The notes under the pieces are model-generated. The model searched no databases. It had not been told where the DNA came from and saw only the letters and a list, made by a program, of their open reading frames with translations. Positions 22,624 through 45,970 of a DNA stretch of 58,904 nt are shown one piece after another (the first letter of the stretch is position 1; each line of letters opens with the position of its first letter). The stretch lies in NCBI GenBank assembly GCA_947628435.1, contig CANQZW010000001.1:76013-134916 (forward strand), written 5' to 3'. The DNA is from an uncultured Bacilli bacterium. GTDB taxonomy: Bacteria > Bacillota_I > Bacilli_A > RF39 > UBA660. Position numbers and translations under genes: made by a program.

Positions 22624-22644
22624 GTTTATTCCTCCTTATTTAAA

Positions 22645-22704
22645 ATATTCGCCTTACCTAAGAATATGGTTAGGAGTACTTTCCAATACCTGAGATAAGG
22701 TAAC
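22645..22704 (-). ncRNA. Candidate rpsO leader RNA (possible S15 autoregulatory element)
   Basis: Minus strand GTTACCTTATCTCAGGTATTGGAAAGTACTCCTAACCATATTCTTAGGTAAGGCG can form TACCT/AGGTA, CCTAA/TTAGG and alternative TTACCT/AGGTAA helices just upstream of the RBS. Confidence 0.45.
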
Positions 22705-22891
22705 AATAATAATATACACTTATTTTGCTAAATATGCAAGATTTTTTGAGATTTTTTATTATTTATTACTTTCTTATGTTGTTTTAACATCATAATCTAT
22801 TTAATAATTAAACTTAATTTCTTTTGTTTAGTTTAATTTATAAAAAGACAACTACTTAATATTAATACGATATAATTAGTTTAAAAGCTTA

Positions 22892-23785: not shown

Positions 23786-25783
23786 CTACTTTCTTTTTAA
23801 ATATCTACTTGGTCTAATAATATTACTTTCTTCGCTATCAAAATATTTAATTACGTTATCTACTTCAAATTCCCCGTTATCATTATTCATATGATAAGGA
23901 ATTCCATTATTATTTCTACGATAATCATTAATAATGTTAATTTCTTCATAATATCCAAGATATTCATTTGGTTCTAAAACATCTTTTACACTCTCTAAGT
24001 AATCAAATGAATCAGTAACATCATCTTCATTATAAATACCAGACGAAATTAACTCTAAGTATTGATCTAGTATATTAATAACACGCTTTTTACTTTCGAT
24101 AATTGTTTCATCATTTAACTTTTTATTTAAACCTTTTCTTAATATTTTAGAGATTTTTTTAATAGCTCTTGATTCATACAAATTACCATATTTATTTAAA
24201 TTAATACTATCAGATTGATATATTTTGCACTTTTCATTTGCTAATCTATTTCTTGAGCAGAATAATCTTACTCCTCCTATTATATCTGAATCTGAAATTC
24301 TTTTTTCATACTTTTTAATTTTATCTTTAAGAATTGATCTTTTTTGTTCATCAGTTTCTTCTTCTAATAGATGCTGGTTCTTTGCTATCATCTTTTTATT
24401 AAAGTTTTTAGCAATTTTAGTTCCCGCAACAAAAGTAACAATACCACCTAAAGCCTCTTTTATTCTAGTAGATAAACTATACTTTTTAAAATCTTTTGCT
24501 GTTAGTTTATTTTGATACTCATCTTGAACAAAATTATTATAAGTTGTTAAAACGTTATTATACTTTTCTTCAATTGTTAATTCTTCAATATTATCTTGCT
24601 TTTTATTAATATAATCATCAGGTAAATATTGATATCTATCTTTTAATTCTAACATTTTTTCTTCTTCTGGTTTAAAATCATTTGCTAAGTCATTTTCTAT
24701 TTTACTTAATAATTTTTCAAACTTAGATTGATTATTTTCCATTATTTGTTTTATTATTTCAAATAAATCATCTTTTACATATCCATCTTCTAATTCTTTA
24801 ACAGCGTTATATGCATTTTTAAAATCTATTGCTTTTTCAGTTTTTTGAGCTTGATTTACTAGGTCTTGAGCTTGTTTTTCTTGTAAACTTAAACCGCTTA
24901 TTTCTTCATTTATTTGTGCACTATTAGCTTGTAAATCATTTCTTATGTTTTCATCTTCTATTTTTTCAATCAAACTAATAGCATAATCTAATGCTTTTTT
25001 ATTCTTATTATTTTTTGCTATATCAAAATAATATTCAACTTCGCTAACTTTATTTTCTAAAGAATAATCTTCATTTGATTCTTCAGGAGTAACATTATTT
25101 TCCTTTTTAGCAACTGAATCATGTGTATTTATAATATTATTAATTTCATCAAAGAAATTTTCTACATTTAAATTTTTATTATCATTTAATAAATTTTCAA
25201 ATGCAATTTTCATATTATTTAATCTCATGATTTCTTCAATATTATTTTTCATGTTTTCTAATTCGTCATTATTAGAATTAGATAATTTATCAGTATTTAA
25301 AGCACTTGCAATTTCTTGTTTTTTATTATTTATTTCATCAATTAATTGTTCAACAGCTTTTTTTGCTAATAATATTTTTTCAAAATTATTATAACTTACT
25401 TGTTCTTTAGCTTGTTTTATAGCATTTTCCTTTTTTAAATAAGCTTCATCATAAGACATAATAAACTTATTTAATGAATCTAATTTTTTTCTTAATTCAA
25501 TTCGTTCCTCGGCAGTACAACTACTATTTGCTAATTTACGAGTAATTATTCTACATTTTCTTTTTGCAAATTCAACAGCTTTAATACCTCTTATATTTTT
25601 ATCATCACTACTAGATTTTATAACAAAATTAGCTTTTATTACAAACTTATCTAAAGTATTATTCCAATCATTTTCTATTTGGTTAATTGATTTTTCTAAT
25701 AAATCTTTAGAATCTTTTTCTAATTTTTCTATTTCGTTTTTTGTATTTTCAATTATAGATTTAAATGTGCTTTCTATATTCAT
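23786..25783 (-). CDS. Large coiled-coil protein of unknown function with internal helical repeats (start likely MNIESTF)
   Basis: Lys/Glu/Asn-rich; degenerate repeats KALDYAISLIEKIEDENIRNDLQ and AIDFKNAYNAVKELEDGYVKDDLFE; moderately hydrophobic LGGIVTFVAGTKIA. Confidence 0.8.
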   Translation of the reverse strand: MNIESTFKSIIENTKNEIEKLEKDSKDLLEKSINQIENDWNNTLDKFVIKANFVIKSSSDDKNIRGIKAVEFAKRKCRIITRKLANSSCTAEERIELRKKLDSLNKFIMSYDEAYLKKENAIKQAKEQVSYNNFEKILLAKKAVEQLIDEINNKKQEIASALNTDKLSNSNNDELENMKNNIEEIMRLNNMKIAFENLLNDNKNLNVENFFDEINNIINTHDSVAKKENNVTPEESNEDYSLENKVSEVEYYFDIAKNNKNKKALDYAISLIEKIEDENIRNDLQANSAQINEEISGLSLQEKQAQDLVNQAQKTEKAIDFKNAYNAVKELEDGYVKDDLFEIIKQIMENNQSKFEKLLSKIENDLANDFKPEEEKMLELKDRYQYLPDDYINKKQDNIEELTIEEKYNNVLTTYNNFVQDEYQNKLTAKDFKKYSLSTRIKEALGGIVTFVAGTKIAKNFNKKMIAKNQHLLEEETDEQKRSILKDKIKKYEKRISDSDIIGGVRLFCSRNRLANEKCKIYQSDSINLNKYGNLYESRAIKKISKILRKGLNKKLNDETIIESKKRVINILDQYLELISSGIYNEDDVTDSFDYLESVKDVLEPNEYLGYYEEINIINDYRRNNNGIPYHMNNDNGEFEVDNVIKYFDSEESNIIRPSRYLKRK

Positions 25784-25914
25784 TTGAAATTCCCCCTTTG
25801 TTTGAATGTCCAATATGTTATCACTATTTTTATATTTTGTCAATACCTATTTTTTTCTTTATAAATTAAAAAAAGCATACACTTTTTGTGCATACCTTAA
25901 ATCATTATTAATAT

Positions 25915-27294
25915 TTAACTGTTTTTTTTCAATACAACGTAACCAATAACAGCAATTACAACCATGATAAATGATAAAATTATAACACTTATTTTACCAC
26001 TTTTTTTATCTTGCTGTTCTTCTGAATCATTAGTATACATTTCATTTAAATACTGTTCATAAGAATCAGTTAAATAATATCTGTCTTTTCCCTTAAATAT
26101 ATGATCATAATAATTTTTAAAACTTACTGGCAATTTATTCTTATTTTTATTATATATTTTTTCAATTTCTGAAAAACTAGAATCATCTGGAATGTTAACA
26201 TCAATTAAAAGTTGTAAAGTAGTGATTGCAAACGCATATAAATCAGTTTTTTCACTTACAATTTTATTTAACGGATCGCGATACTTTTTAGCAACTTCAT
26301 TATTAATTACGCTATCTTTAATAACAAAAGCATCGCAATCTATTAATTTAACATTTCCATTTTTATCAAAGAAAATATTATCTGGATTAAGATCACAAAT
26401 ATATATTTTATTTTTGTGAAGTTTTTTCATTACTTTTTCTATTTCTTTTATTTTATCTATTTTTTCTTCAAAACTATAACTTTCACTTTTATTCCATAAA
26501 GCTTGTCCTTCAGGCAAATATTCCATAATATATCCAACAAATATACCATCATAATAAACTAAGTGCTTTGGTTTTATAATTTCAGGAATATCGATATTTT
26601 TAATATATTTTATCGTTTCTTCTCTATCTTTAACATACGTAAATGAAGTTGATGTAAACATTTTAAGAATTCTTCCATCTTGCGTTAAATATATATTACC
26701 AGATCTTCCAGATGCTATTTTTTTAACTAATTTTAAATCTTTATAATCCACAGAATCTGCTGGAATATCCCTGAATTTATCATTTAACATACGCATTCTA
26801 ACAGCAGAAATAACGTTAATACTTAATAGATTACCATCCTCATTAATACCCACTTCATAAAAACCAAGGGATTGATAAATCTTAAGCACATCTAAATTAT
26901 GCTCATCAACCGTAACAATAACGTTTCTAGAGCCTACCTCTCCTGCAATATATATAACCGCCTCAATTAAAAGAGCTTCCATATTTTTGTTTTTAAATTC
27001 ATCTAAAACATATACTTTATTTATTTCAACTTGAGAAACATTATTATTATTCTTAAATTCAAAGGTGGTGTATCCGATAAGCATTTTATTAGTTTGTATA
27101 ACCAAAGTTATTTTATTCCTAAAATATTCAGGAATAATATAATCATCTAAATCAAGCAAACAATCTTTTTTTATTGTTTCACTTGAAAAAGTATTGACAA
27201 TATCTGCAAAAACATCAAAATCTGTTTCTAATATCCCTAGGTTTAGATTTTCCTTTTTAACTAAATTTATCACTATATACCACCTACCTATCAT
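25915..27294 (-). CDS. GNAT acetyltransferase-like domain fused to a Ser/Thr kinase-like domain with C-terminal TM anchor
   Basis: GNAT-like VEINKVYVLDEFKNKNMEALLIEAV...IYQSLGFYEVG; kinase Gly-loop IASGRSGNIY, ILKMF, catalytic loop ICDLNPDNIFFDKNGNVKLIDCDAF; C-terminal VIILSFIMVVIAVIGYVVL. Confidence 0.82.
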   Translation of the reverse strand: MIGRWYIVINLVKKENLNLGILETDFDVFADIVNTFSSETIKKDCLLDLDDYIIPEYFRNKITLVIQTNKMLIGYTTFEFKNNNNVSQVEINKVYVLDEFKNKNMEALLIEAVIYIAGEVGSRNVIVTVDEHNLDVLKIYQSLGFYEVGINEDGNLLSINVISAVRMRMLNDKFRDIPADSVDYKDLKLVKKIASGRSGNIYLTQDGRILKMFTSTSFTYVKDREETIKYIKNIDIPEIIKPKHLVYYDGIFVGYIMEYLPEGQALWNKSESYSFEEKIDKIKEIEKVMKKLHKNKIYICDLNPDNIFFDKNGNVKLIDCDAFVIKDSVINNEVAKKYRDPLNKIVSEKTDLYAFAITTLQLLIDVNIPDDSSFSEIEKIYNKNKNKLPVSFKNYYDHIFKGKDRYYLTDSYEQYLNEMYTNDSEEQQDKKSGKISVIILSFIMVVIAVIGYVVLKKNS

Positions 27295-27373
27295 TAATAT
27301 AATTATACATTGTTTTTAATCATATTTCTACAAAAAATACACGTTTTAATAAAAAAAAGAAATAAATTTCAAA

Positions 27374-31628: not shown

Positions 31629-32987
31629 TTATTTCTTAATAACATATTCATTATAACAACTATCTACATATGTTTTTAAATCATTTACGTAAGAATTTTC
31701 GATACTCTTTATTTGTTCTTCTAATTGTTTTTTAAGAAAATCAACCTCTTTATCTTTCTTAGGTTCGTTTTCCATTAAATATTTTCTAATTTCATTTTTA
31801 TATCTATCTCTTTTATTTTTATCATCAAAAGATTTTTCTATTGTTTCATTATTTATTGATAACTTAAACGAATATAATAACTCCATTGTTTTTATATCTA
31901 CCATATATTCATTATCAAAAATAATCATTCCATCACTAATTTTAATTGAATCAAATGTGCAATCTATTATTTGATTTCCCTCTTTATTTATTACACCACT
32001 TTTGCCATTTAAACGAACGGTTGCTAAACCATCTTGAAAATCAGGTGCATCATCATAAATTGGTTTTACTACTTCTTTTCCTTCTTTATTTATATAACCC
32101 CATTTTCCATTTAAACATACTGATGCTAAACCATCATAAAAATTAGATACATAATCATATTTTTTATTTAGTTTTATTACTTCTTTTCCTTCTTTGTTGA
32201 TATAGCCCCATTTACTATTTAAACATACTGCTGCTAGGCCTTCATGAAAACTAGATGCAAAATCATAAATTGGCTTTACTACTTCTTTTCCGTCTTTGTT
32301 AATATAGCCAGATTTTTTATTTAATCTAACTTCTGCTAATCCTTCATTGAAATCACGTACATTATCATAAATTGGTTTTATTACGTATTTTCCTTCTTTA
32401 TTTATGTAACCCCATTTACCATGTAATTTAACTGCTGCTAGGCCTTCACTAAAATTAGATACACGATCATAAATTGGTTTTATTACTTCTTTTCCTTCTT
32501 TATTAATATAACCCCATTTTCCGCCTAAACAAACTGCCGCTAGGCCCTCATGAAAATCAGATGCATGATTAGAAAAATCAGTTCCAAGATGATAATAATA
32601 AGATACACTATCATAAATTGGTTTTACTACTTCTTTTCCTTCTTTATTAATATAACCATATTTTCCATTTAAACGAACTACCGCTAAACCCTCATGAAAA
32701 TCATGTACATCATCATAAATTGGTTTTATTAAGAATTTTCCTTTTTTATCTATCACACCATATTTTCCATTTAGTTTAACTGATGCTAATCCTTCGTGAA
32801 AATCACATACAATATCATAAATTGGTTTTACTACTTCTTTTCCTTTTTTATTGATATAACCCCATTTTCCATTTAATTTAACTCTTGCTAGTCCTTCTTG
32901 AAAATCATATACATAATCATACTTTGATACATCTATCTTATTTTTTATTATAGTGCTATAACTTATAACAGCTTTTTCCATTACCAA
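31629..32987 (-). CDS. WG-repeat protein
   Basis: Repeating unit ~F(H/Q)EGLA.V.LNGKWGYINKEGKEVVKPIYD, about 9-10 copies. Confidence 0.92.
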   Translation of the reverse strand: MVMEKAVISYSTIIKNKIDVSKYDYVYDFQEGLARVKLNGKWGYINKKGKEVVKPIYDIVCDFHEGLASVKLNGKYGVIDKKGKFLIKPIYDDVHDFHEGLAVVRLNGKYGYINKEGKEVVKPIYDSVSYYYHLGTDFSNHASDFHEGLAAVCLGGKWGYINKEGKEVIKPIYDRVSNFSEGLAAVKLHGKWGYINKEGKYVIKPIYDNVRDFNEGLAEVRLNKKSGYINKDGKEVVKPIYDFASSFHEGLAAVCLNSKWGYINKEGKEVIKLNKKYDYVSNFYDGLASVCLNGKWGYINKEGKEVVKPIYDDAPDFQDGLATVRLNGKSGVINKEGNQIIDCTFDSIKISDGMIIFDNEYMVDIKTMELLYSFKLSINNETIEKSFDDKNKRDRYKNEIRKYLMENEPKKDKEVDFLKKQLEEQIKSIENSYVNDLKTYVDSCYNEYVIKK

Positions 32988-33096
32988 AATCTCCTTTTTA
33001 ATTTTGGCCTTATTATATTTAAATTACTTATCAATGTCAATAATCACTAGCAAATAAAAAAGTATCACTAGCAAATAAAAAAGTATCAAATATACT

Positions 33097-34338
33097 TTAT
33101 TGATACTTTTTATAATAACTATTTGCCATTTCTAATGCATCATCTACGTAAGATTTTTCAATACTCTTTATTTGTTCTTCAAATTGCTTTTTAAGTGCCT
33201 CAAATTGTTTTTCATATTCATCTTCATTTTCGTCTATCTGTTTTTCTTTTATAGTTTCCTTTTCTTTTAAATATTTTTCTATTTCATTTTTATAGCTATT
33301 TCTTTTATTTTTATCGTCAAAGAATTTTTTTATTGTTTTATTACCTAATGATAATTTAACTAAATATAATAATTCCATTGTTTTTATATCTACCATGTAC
33401 TTATCATCAAAAATAATCATTCCGCCATTAATCTTAATTGAATTAAACGTACAATCTATTATTTGATTTCCTTTTTTATCTATTACGCCTGTTTTGTCAT
33501 TTAAACATACTGCTGCTAAACCATTTTGAAAATCAAATGCATAATCATAAATTGGTTTTATTACGTATTTTCCTTCTTTATTAATAAAACCATATTTTCC
33601 ATTTAATTTAACTCTTGCTAAACCTTCATGAAAACTAGATGCAAAATCATAAATTGGTTTTATTACGTATTTTCCTTCTTTGTTGATATAACCCCATTTT
33701 CCATTTAAACATACTGCTGCTAAGCCTTCATGAAAATCAGATACATAATCATATTTTTTATTTGGTTTTATTACGTATTTTCCTTCTTTATTGATATAGC
33801 CATATTTTCCATTTAATTCAACTACCGCTAAACCCTCATGAAAATTAGATACATAATCATATTTATTTTTTAGTTTTATTACTTCCTTTCCTTCTTTATT
33901 GATGTAAACCCATTTTCCATTTAAACGAACTGCTGCTAGTCCTTCATGGAAACTATGTGCATAATCATAAATTGGTTTTATTACGCATTTTCCTTCTTTA
34001 TTGATATAGCCATATTTTCCATTTAATTCAACTACCGCTAAACCCTCATGAAAATTAGATACACTATCATAAATTGGTTTTATTACTTCTTTTCCTTTTT
34101 TGTTGATATAACTCCATTTTCCATTTAAATAAACTGCTGCTAATCCTTCTTGAAAATCAGATACATTATCATAAATTGGTTTTATTACTTCTTTTCCTTC
34201 TTTATTTATATAGCCCCATTTTCTATTTAAATAAACCCTTGCTAATCCTTCATGAAAGTCAAATACATAACTATTATACTTTGATATATCTATCTTGTTT
34301 TTTATTATTGTGCTATAACTTATAACAACTTTTTCCAT
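33097..34338 (-). CDS. WG-repeat protein, paralogue of neighbouring gene
   Basis: Same repeats; near-identical N-terminus (EKVVISYSTIIKNKIDISKY) and similar C-terminus (GMIIFDDKYMVDIKTMELLY). Confidence 0.92.
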   Translation of the reverse strand: MEKVVISYSTIIKNKIDISKYNSYVFDFHEGLARVYLNRKWGYINKEGKEVIKPIYDNVSDFQEGLAAVYLNGKWSYINKKGKEVIKPIYDSVSNFHEGLAVVELNGKYGYINKEGKCVIKPIYDYAHSFHEGLAAVRLNGKWVYINKEGKEVIKLKNKYDYVSNFHEGLAVVELNGKYGYINKEGKYVIKPNKKYDYVSDFHEGLAAVCLNGKWGYINKEGKYVIKPIYDFASSFHEGLARVKLNGKYGFINKEGKYVIKPIYDYAFDFQNGLAAVCLNDKTGVIDKKGNQIIDCTFNSIKINGGMIIFDDKYMVDIKTMELLYLVKLSLGNKTIKKFFDDKNKRNSYKNEIEKYLKEKETIKEKQIDENEDEYEKQFEALKKQFEEQIKSIEKSYVDDALEMANSYYKKYQ

Positions 34339-44705: not shown

Positions 44706-45464
44706 TTATTTAAGCTTAATATCTATTCCTATTGGGCAGTGATCACTACCAAAAACATCACTATATATGATAGGATTAAACACCTTATTTATAATTGATT
44801 TTGATACTATAAAGTAATCAATCCGCCATCCAATGTTTTTTAATCTAGAGTTTCCTATATAACTCCACCAAGAATAAGCATCTTTCTTATTTGGATTAAA
44901 ATATCTATACGTATCAATAAAACCACTTTCTAAAAGTTTAGTAAACTTATCTCTTTCTTCGTAAGTAAAACCAGCATTACCTATGTTAGCCTTAGCATTT
45001 TTTATATCATTTTCGGTATGAGCAACGTTAAAATCACCACACACTACTACAGGTTTTTTCTTTTCTAAGTTTTTTATGTATTTTCTAAAATCATCTTCCC
45101 ATTTCATTCTATAATTTAGTCTTGATAAATCTCTTTTTACATTTGGTACGTATTGATTAACTAAATAATAATCTTCAAACTCCAAAGTTATTACCCTACC
45201 TTCTTTATCATGCATGTCAATTCCAATACCATAAGAAACACTTATTGGCTTATATAACGTGTAAATTAAAGTACCAGAGTAACCCTTTTTTAATGCTGGA
45301 TTTATATAACAATAATAATCTTTTGGTTTAAAATCTATTTGATCTTCTTGTGCTTTTACTTCTTGAAGACAGTAAACATCAGCATCACAGGTATAAAAAA
45401 AGTCTTCAAAACCCTTTTTTAAACATGCTCTAAAACCTGCTACATTCCAAGATACTAACTTCAT
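44706..45464 (-). CDS. xth: Exodeoxyribonuclease III
   Basis: MKLVSWNVAGFRACLKKGFEDFF, CLQEVKAQ, VCGDFNVAHTENDI, WRIDYFIVS, GSDHCPIGIDI. Confidence 0.97.
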   Translation of the reverse strand: MKLVSWNVAGFRACLKKGFEDFFYTCDADVYCLQEVKAQEDQIDFKPKDYYCYINPALKKGYSGTLIYTLYKPISVSYGIGIDMHDKEGRVITLEFEDYYLVNQYVPNVKRDLSRLNYRMKWEDDFRKYIKNLEKKKPVVVCGDFNVAHTENDIKNAKANIGNAGFTYEERDKFTKLLESGFIDTYRYFNPNKKDAYSWWSYIGNSRLKNIGWRIDYFIVSKSIINKVFNPIIYSDVFGSDHCPIGIDIKLK

Positions 45465-45970
45465 TTTGCCCTCCTTCTTTTGCTTTCATAACAAAGACTT
45501 TCTTTATAAAAAACCATTTTACCAGTAAAACCCCTAGATTCATACTCTTCTTCATCAAATAGAAAATCACAAGCTTGTGCTGCTAATATACTATTTTTAT
45601 TACTAGGATCAATATCTAGTTTAACAACTCTTATGTTATGATTAACAAATAAATAATCGCATACCTCATTAATTATTTTCTTTGCCTTACCCATACCACG
45701 AAATTCTTTAAGAACAGATAATTCTAAAAACACCTCATCATTAAACATATTAGAAATAAATACGTATCCTATTGGTATGTTATTTTCTAAAACAACATAA
45801 GCACTTTGAAAACTAAAATCCTTGCAATTACTAAAATTACTTAACCTATCACTAACGTTATGAATAAAATTAGACTTTGATTCATTTTCAAAAGATCTTT
45901 TTAAAGAACTATGTTTATTTTCATCATATCTACATAAATTTAAAGTTTCTAATTTTATCACTAAAATCAC
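45461..45970 (-). CDS. GNAT family N-acetyltransferase
   Basis: IPIGYVFISN...VFLELSVLKEFRGMGKAKKIINEVCDYLFVNHNIRVVKLDIDPSNKNSILAAQACDF. Confidence 0.85.
   Translation of the reverse strand: MILVIKLETLNLCRYDENKHSSLKRSFENESKSNFIHNVSDRLSNFSNCKDFSFQSAYVVLENNIPIGYVFISNMFNDEVFLELSVLKEFRGMGKAKKIINEVCDYLFVNHNIRVVKLDIDPSNKNSILAAQACDFLFDEEEYESRGFTGKMVFYKESLCYESKRRRAK

Follow-up and report, generated by a model that had tools for sequence, protein, structure and literature searches.

Results

A GNAT-kinase gene and a coiled-coil gene lie between rbfA and truB

We analyzed a 58,904-nucleotide stretch of DNA (the window) from an uncultured Bacilli bacterium, whose genome assembly spans 0.98 Mb in 28 contigs and is 94.8% complete. 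Our subject is a pair of neighboring genes, one encoding a protein that joins a GNAT fold to a protein kinase fold and the other a fast-evolving, all-helical coiled-coil protein. Both genes, and all of their features described below, are on the minus strand. The order on this strand is rimP-nusA-ylxR-infB-rbfA, kinase gene, coiled-coil gene, truB-rpsO-pnp, and from rbfA onward it had been correctly given in an initial annotation made from the sequence.

The initial annotation read the kinase gene as an open reading frame (ORF) of 459 amino acids (25915-27294, ATG at 27294). The true start is probably a GTG at 27264, giving a protein of 449 amino acids (25915-27264), because the ATG lies only a few bases downstream of a TATAAT box (27302-27307) and because homologues start with MINLVKKEN and a Shine-Dalgarno-like GGTGG precedes the GTG. 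As proposed earlier, the protein contains both a GNAT-fold domain (residues 1-150, 26815-27264; PF00583, E = 3.2e-6, 27.9 bits against a cut-off of 20.7) and a protein-kinase-fold domain (residues 177-400, 26065-26736; PF00069, E = 6.1e-11, 42.6 bits against a cut-off of 31.7). In an AlphaFold2 model built from an 18-sequence alignment (mean pLDDT 75.8, residues 1-50 of low confidence), the GNAT part follows the order beta-alpha-alpha-beta-beta-beta-alpha-beta-alpha-beta-beta, and a kinase fold and a terminal helix at residues 425-448 come after it. Foldseek matched the protein to kinases in the PDB (E of about 1e-9), and its N-terminal part gave weak but collinear matches to solved GNATs. PHROGs returned weak, generic acetyltransferase and kinase matches only. 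The terminal helix (25921-25992) has a hydropathy of 3.1, bearing out the suggestion of a C-terminal transmembrane (TM) tail. The protein ends a few residues past this predicted tail anchor and lacks extracellular PASTA repeats.

The acyl-CoA signature is lost and core kinase residues are kept

The consensus for the acyl-CoA P-loop of GNATs is Q/R-x-x-G-x-G/A (PMC4964394). The corresponding segment here is K91-N-K-N-M-E96 (26977-26994), and the pattern in the genus alignment is K-x-K-[NGSM]-[MA]-E; the consensus signature is lost in all 18 sequences, and Glu96, at the last position, is invariant. A second GNAT in the window (45461-45970) has the P-loop R-G-M-G-K-A, which fits the consensus. 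Because the P-loop reads K-N-K-N-M-E, with Glu last in every sampled sequence, we regard the domain as probably a pseudo-GNAT, catalytically dead and maintained by selection. The acetyltransferase of the initial annotation thus holds as a fold and probably not as an active enzyme.

The kinase motifs quoted in the initial annotation are present as given. In the genus alignment, K201 is invariant (18/18), as are D291 and N296 of the catalytic loop C290-D-L-N-P-D-N296 (26377-26397), the equivalent of HRDLKxxN. The metal-binding D309-C-D311 (26332-26340) replaces DFG; D309 is kept in 17 of the 18 sequences and is Asn in one species. Missing from the alignment are the HRD arginine, the HRDLK lysine, the Phe-Gly of DFG and the APE motif, the two loops reading ICDLN and DCD. 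The domain is presumably an active kinase. Elsewhere in the same genome (G000:C19), the sequence shows a kinase of canonical type, distinct from this one, that carries PASTA-like repeats and has a PP2C-type phosphatase next to it.

The pair is conserved together within one genus

Each of the 18 genomes sampled from the genus carries the GNAT-kinase fusion, with identities of 60-87%. Outside the genus, samples (not complete surveys) of genomes from the order (288), class (395) and phylum (392) yielded matches to the kinase domain only, and plasmid or phage records gave zero matches to the fusion. A literature search, in which subscription journals were thinly covered, turned up no fusion of a GNAT with a Hanks-type kinase. 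In 14 genomes a single contig carries the kinase gene, the coiled-coil gene and truB in this order, and in two the arrangement is consistent across a contig break; the two other genomes are unreadable here. The initial annotation had staked its reading on the presence of GNAT and kinase folds and on co-conservation of the two genes. All of these were found, and the pair is adjacent in every genome where the interval can be read.

Selection on the two genes was compared by Nei-Gojobori dN/dS over the five or six closest species; since synonymous changes approach saturation and the coiled-coil sequences cannot be aligned with certainty, only the contrast is usable. The ratio is 0.072 for the kinase gene (0.056 for the GNAT domain, 0.060 for the kinase domain) and 0.72 for the coiled-coil gene, with rbfA at 0.054, infB at 0.073 and truB at 0.208 for comparison. 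The low ratios in the GNAT and kinase parts indicate that both domains are maintained.

The second gene encodes a hypervariable coiled-coil protein

The initial annotation described the second gene as a 685-amino-acid coiled-coil ORF starting at a TTG (23786-25843). Its helical character stands, the AlphaFold2 model of the window's protein being all-helical, but the start does not: the TTG at 25843 was rejected because its letters belong to TTGACA, the -35 box of a promoter that is conserved. The gene probably starts at a conserved ATG at 25783 and encodes 665 amino acids (23786-25783). Complete copies range from 594 to 874 amino acids across the genus, match no Pfam family and have no TM segment (maximum hydropathy ≤1.13). 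Foldseek comparison of the model with the PDB gave no match below E 0.05. The homologues L065, L067 and L072 are just 15-21% identical, yet have the same leader sequence upstream (see below).

Candidate homologues outside the genus were rejected: the weak matches that were inspected are either helical repeats of degenerate sequence, in secreted proteins with no relation to this one, or unrelated reading frames. A PADLOC match to Csm3 (E = 1.2e-4) was put down to low-complexity helix. Most of the coiled-coil proteins end in [IVL]KR(K). Taken together with the products of small TM genes (L062:8606-9247, L071:7232-7819), most have a hydrophobic residue followed by KR(K) at the end, as in RYLKRK, QYIKRK and ARIKRRNF, a possible shared C-terminal signal.

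The two genes have separate promoters, and one shares a leader with genes for predicted envelope proteins

The kinase gene is preceded by a promoter, TTTGTAGAAAT-N-TATAAT (27302-27334), that is conserved in the genus. The form TTTTTTGTAGAAAT-N-TATAATT occurs once per genome, at the kinase gene only, in 10 of 11 genomes. Another conserved promoter, TTGACA-N17-TAACAT with an extended -10 (25815-25843), stands before the coiled-coil gene. In the gap between the two genes lies an intrinsic-terminator hairpin (25872-25898; one found against 0.4 expected in shuffles), the sole terminator-like hairpin across 22.6-27.8 kb. A custom scan of 18 genomes detected hairpin-plus-T sites between rbfA and the kinase gene in nine (0.1 expected), the window's genome having none, and after the kinase gene in five (0.2 expected). 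The two genes are predicted to form separate transcripts from different promoters. With a terminator, dedicated conserved promoters and a variable rbfA-truB gap (see below), their membership of a translation operon, as claimed in the initial annotation, is probably positional only, and the reading of the kinase protein as a regulator of that operon was rejected on these grounds.

Between its promoter and its ATG, the coiled-coil gene carries a genus-specific leader, CATTCAAACAAA(A)GGGGG (25791-25808), that is common to envelope-protein genes. The shared layout of promoter and leader is TTGACA-N17-TG.TA..AT-GGCATTCAAACAAAAGGGGGAG-ATG. The leader recurs 29 times in 11 genomes, compared with once for the reversed control, and at one mismatch it occurs in none of the 115 genomes sampled from the family's other genera. 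The sites lie mostly at the coiled-coil gene and at genes for envelope proteins with a predicted membrane anchor, which fall into two unrelated families. One comprises proteins of about 440-500 amino acids with an N-terminal TM segment and a Thr-rich region; the other is a TM protein that starts with MEEKRGLTIKDLLIRL and has Thr/Cys-rich repeats. Further copies of the leader are found in the window's own genome (G000:C12:11257-11274 and G000:C6:18377-18394). A palindrome within the leader, CATTCAAA...TTTGAATG, was considered as a hairpin with the Shine-Dalgarno sequence in its loop and was rejected; it is broken in several copies, including that of the window, and it is therefore the sequence, rather than the pairing, that is conserved.

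Because promoter and leader are shared, we predict that the coiled-coil gene is co-expressed with envelope proteins rather than with the translation genes (IF-2, NusA, RbfA). The leader may mark abundance as well as co-expression.

The surrounding interval varies within and beyond the genus

In some relatives the rbfA-truB slot holds extra, unrelated genes: L071 has dapA-like genes and small TM genes, and L062, L064, L072 and L073 have others. Among genomes of other genera, some have rbfA and truB side by side and some have them 0.5-1 kb apart, while most of those examined have no truB within about 1.5 kb of rbfA. Given this variability, the insertion seen here is not remarkable in itself.

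Between the kinase and coiled-coil genes, four genomes carry a member of another family specific to the genus; these proteins are 55-68% identical, contain hydrophobic, TM-like stretches and have a conserved C-terminus, SELLKGVGGK (L063:348-2405, L064:6582-8426, L069:1952-3805, L073:9366-11486). Downstream of truB, ribF is missing before rpsO (window 22624-22891), as the initial annotation had noted, and no part of the genome, which is 94.8% complete, matched the FAD_syn/ribF domain (PF06574). Most relatives have an ORF of 315-340 amino acids in this gap, where ribF would be expected, with no Pfam match in either of the two tested. Just upstream of rimP, at 31629-34338, the window encodes two tandem WG-repeat proteins, the first with 11 WG_beta_rep stretches; relatives have unrelated ORFs at this position. 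The relatives' genomes are metagenome-assembled genomes labelled uncultured Bacilli, Erysipelotrichaceae or Clostridium, and several isolate names containing 'Lapin' among them suggest rabbit samples.

Discussion

Domain order, motif status, the TM helix, purifying selection, genus restriction, synteny, separate promoters and the shared leader were all read directly from sequence. The best explanation of these observations, which we hold tentatively and would not call probable, is a tail-anchored pseudo-GNAT kinase that controls an envelope-associated coiled-coil scaffold. The first protein would be a signaling kinase whose GNAT and kinase domains both face the cytoplasm. Its GNAT fold, having lost the acyl-CoA P-loop, would serve for docking or sensing without catalysis of its own, either presenting substrates to the kinase domain or controlling it. 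The second would be a cytosolic, fast-diverging scaffold of the cell envelope, probably abundant, made from the promoter and leader common to predicted membrane-anchored envelope proteins. At the membrane, the kinase would phosphorylate this scaffold or an assembly built from it, much as PrkC of Mycoplasma acts on attachment-organelle proteins. A more specific proposal, which we regard as rather unlikely in its entirety, is that the genus has evolved an envelope-scaffold module in which a tail-anchored kinase controlled by a dead GNAT docks and phosphorylates a hypervariable scaffold co-expressed with envelope proteins through the genus-specific leader.

Several observations weigh against the best explanation. 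Synteny is what suggests that the coiled-coil protein might be a substrate or partner of the kinase; it is the only link between them, and their transcripts are predicted to be separate. If the substrate of the kinase is conserved, a neighbor evolving at a dN/dS of about 0.7 would be unexpected, except where short sites alone are important. In place of the HRDLK lysine that Ser/Thr kinases typically have, the protein has Asn, which makes the substrate class of the kinase uncertain. In L061 (G002), the DFG Asp is replaced by Asn and the catalytic loop reads DLSLDN, suggesting decay towards a pseudokinase. Finally, GNATs with atypical P-loops, such as MtAAC(2')-Ic, can be active (PMC4964394), so that loss of the P-loop signature is no proof of a dead GNAT.

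The strongest rival, possible although somewhat doubtful in our judgment, is that the two genes are functionally independent and that the rbfA-truB gap is a permissive slot for genus-specific genes. Separate promoters and the terminator agree with this, as do the unrelated genes found in the same slot in some relatives and the variable spacing of rbfA and truB in other genera; moreover, the leader ties the coiled-coil gene to envelope genes elsewhere, whereas the kinase promoter is unique. What independence does not readily explain is that the pair stays together in all readable genomes despite the divergence of the coiled-coil protein and the turnover of other insertions. The reading of the initial annotation, in which a single membrane anchor holds both an active acetyltransferase and an active kinase, appears unlikely. 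The GNAT fold does exceed its Pfam cut-off, its constraint equals that of the kinase domain, and the activity of some atypical-P-loop GNATs would allow it, but the genus-wide P-loop ends in Glu in 18 of 18 sequences while the window's other GNAT fits the consensus.

Kinase similarity also raises the prospect that the protein resembles MAD6, PD-T4-6 or MkoA and acts against phages or in a stress response, since the top PADLOC matches were MkoA (1.2e-10), mad6 (1.3e-9) and PD-T4-6 (8.9e-9), with an NCBIfam match to MADS6 (2e-9). All of these matches span the kinase domain alone, however, and the score for NF047741 (MADS MAD6; 36.6 bits) is far under the cut-off of 460. No other defense component was recognized in the gene pair, and universal presence in the sampled genus, housekeeping-level purifying selection and absence from plasmid and phage records are further points against a defense kinase, which we consider very unlikely. 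An enzyme that modifies small molecules, of the AAC(6')-APH(2'') type, would have the identical GNAT-then-kinase order, a similar length and superfamilies shared with known resistance enzymes (PMC4964394). This is the least credible of the alternatives, and highly improbable: PF01636 (APH) gave no match at E ≤ 1, PF00069 instead exceeded its cut-off, the P-loop is lost, a TM anchor is present and aminoglycoside-acetyltransferase models score far under their cut-offs.

Whatever its target, the first protein appears to be a genus-restricted kinase with a novel partner domain, although its function is read from sequence. If a pseudo-acetyltransferase does serve as the strongly selected input domain of a bacterial kinase, this would be an unusual signaling architecture, and across every sample searched the fusion was seen in one genus only. 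The combination of a near-invariant kinase, a hypervariable coiled-coil protein and a shared leader could offer a way into envelope building and control in uncultured gut Bacilli with reduced genomes.

Comparison with known systems

The kinase protein resembles Hanks-type kinases (PF00069) of the PrkC/PknB group in its fold, its catalytic Lys, the Asp of HRD, the Asn and the metal-binding Asp, and in being linked to the membrane. It differs from them in reading ICD for HRD, Asn for the HRDLK lysine and DCD for DFG, and in having no APE. Its architecture is also distinct, with the anchor at the far C-terminus and almost nothing outside the cell, a GNAT fold in front and no PASTA domains; with the PASTA-kinase model NF033483 the protein scores 27.1 bits, where the cut-off is 450. 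The bifunctional resistance enzyme AAC(6')-Ie-APH(2'')-Ia likewise carries an N-terminal GNAT fold followed by a kinase fold on one chain of similar length. Unlike that enzyme, the protein described here has no APH match, has lost the P-loop, ends in a TM tail, and is chromosomal and genus-restricted.

For the gene pair, the closest parallel may be Mycoplasma pneumoniae, in which the Ser/Thr kinase PrkC alters the phosphorylation of cytadherence and attachment-organelle proteins (PMC4923136). The kinase architectures differ, and the scaffolds are likened by type; by analogy, both cases would pair a kinase with an envelope-linked coiled-coil scaffold in a reduced, Bacilli-related genome. For the GNAT domain, a precedent is the pHAT domain of O-GlcNAcase (OGA), a GNAT fold without acetyl-CoA binding that is a regulatory or protein-binding module of its own enzyme (PMC12494797). 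That domain is eukaryotic, C-terminal and attached to a glycoside hydrolase, with no homology to the kinase protein beyond the fold. What the two may have in common is a working principle, in which a non-catalytic GNAT is kept as a module of another enzyme.

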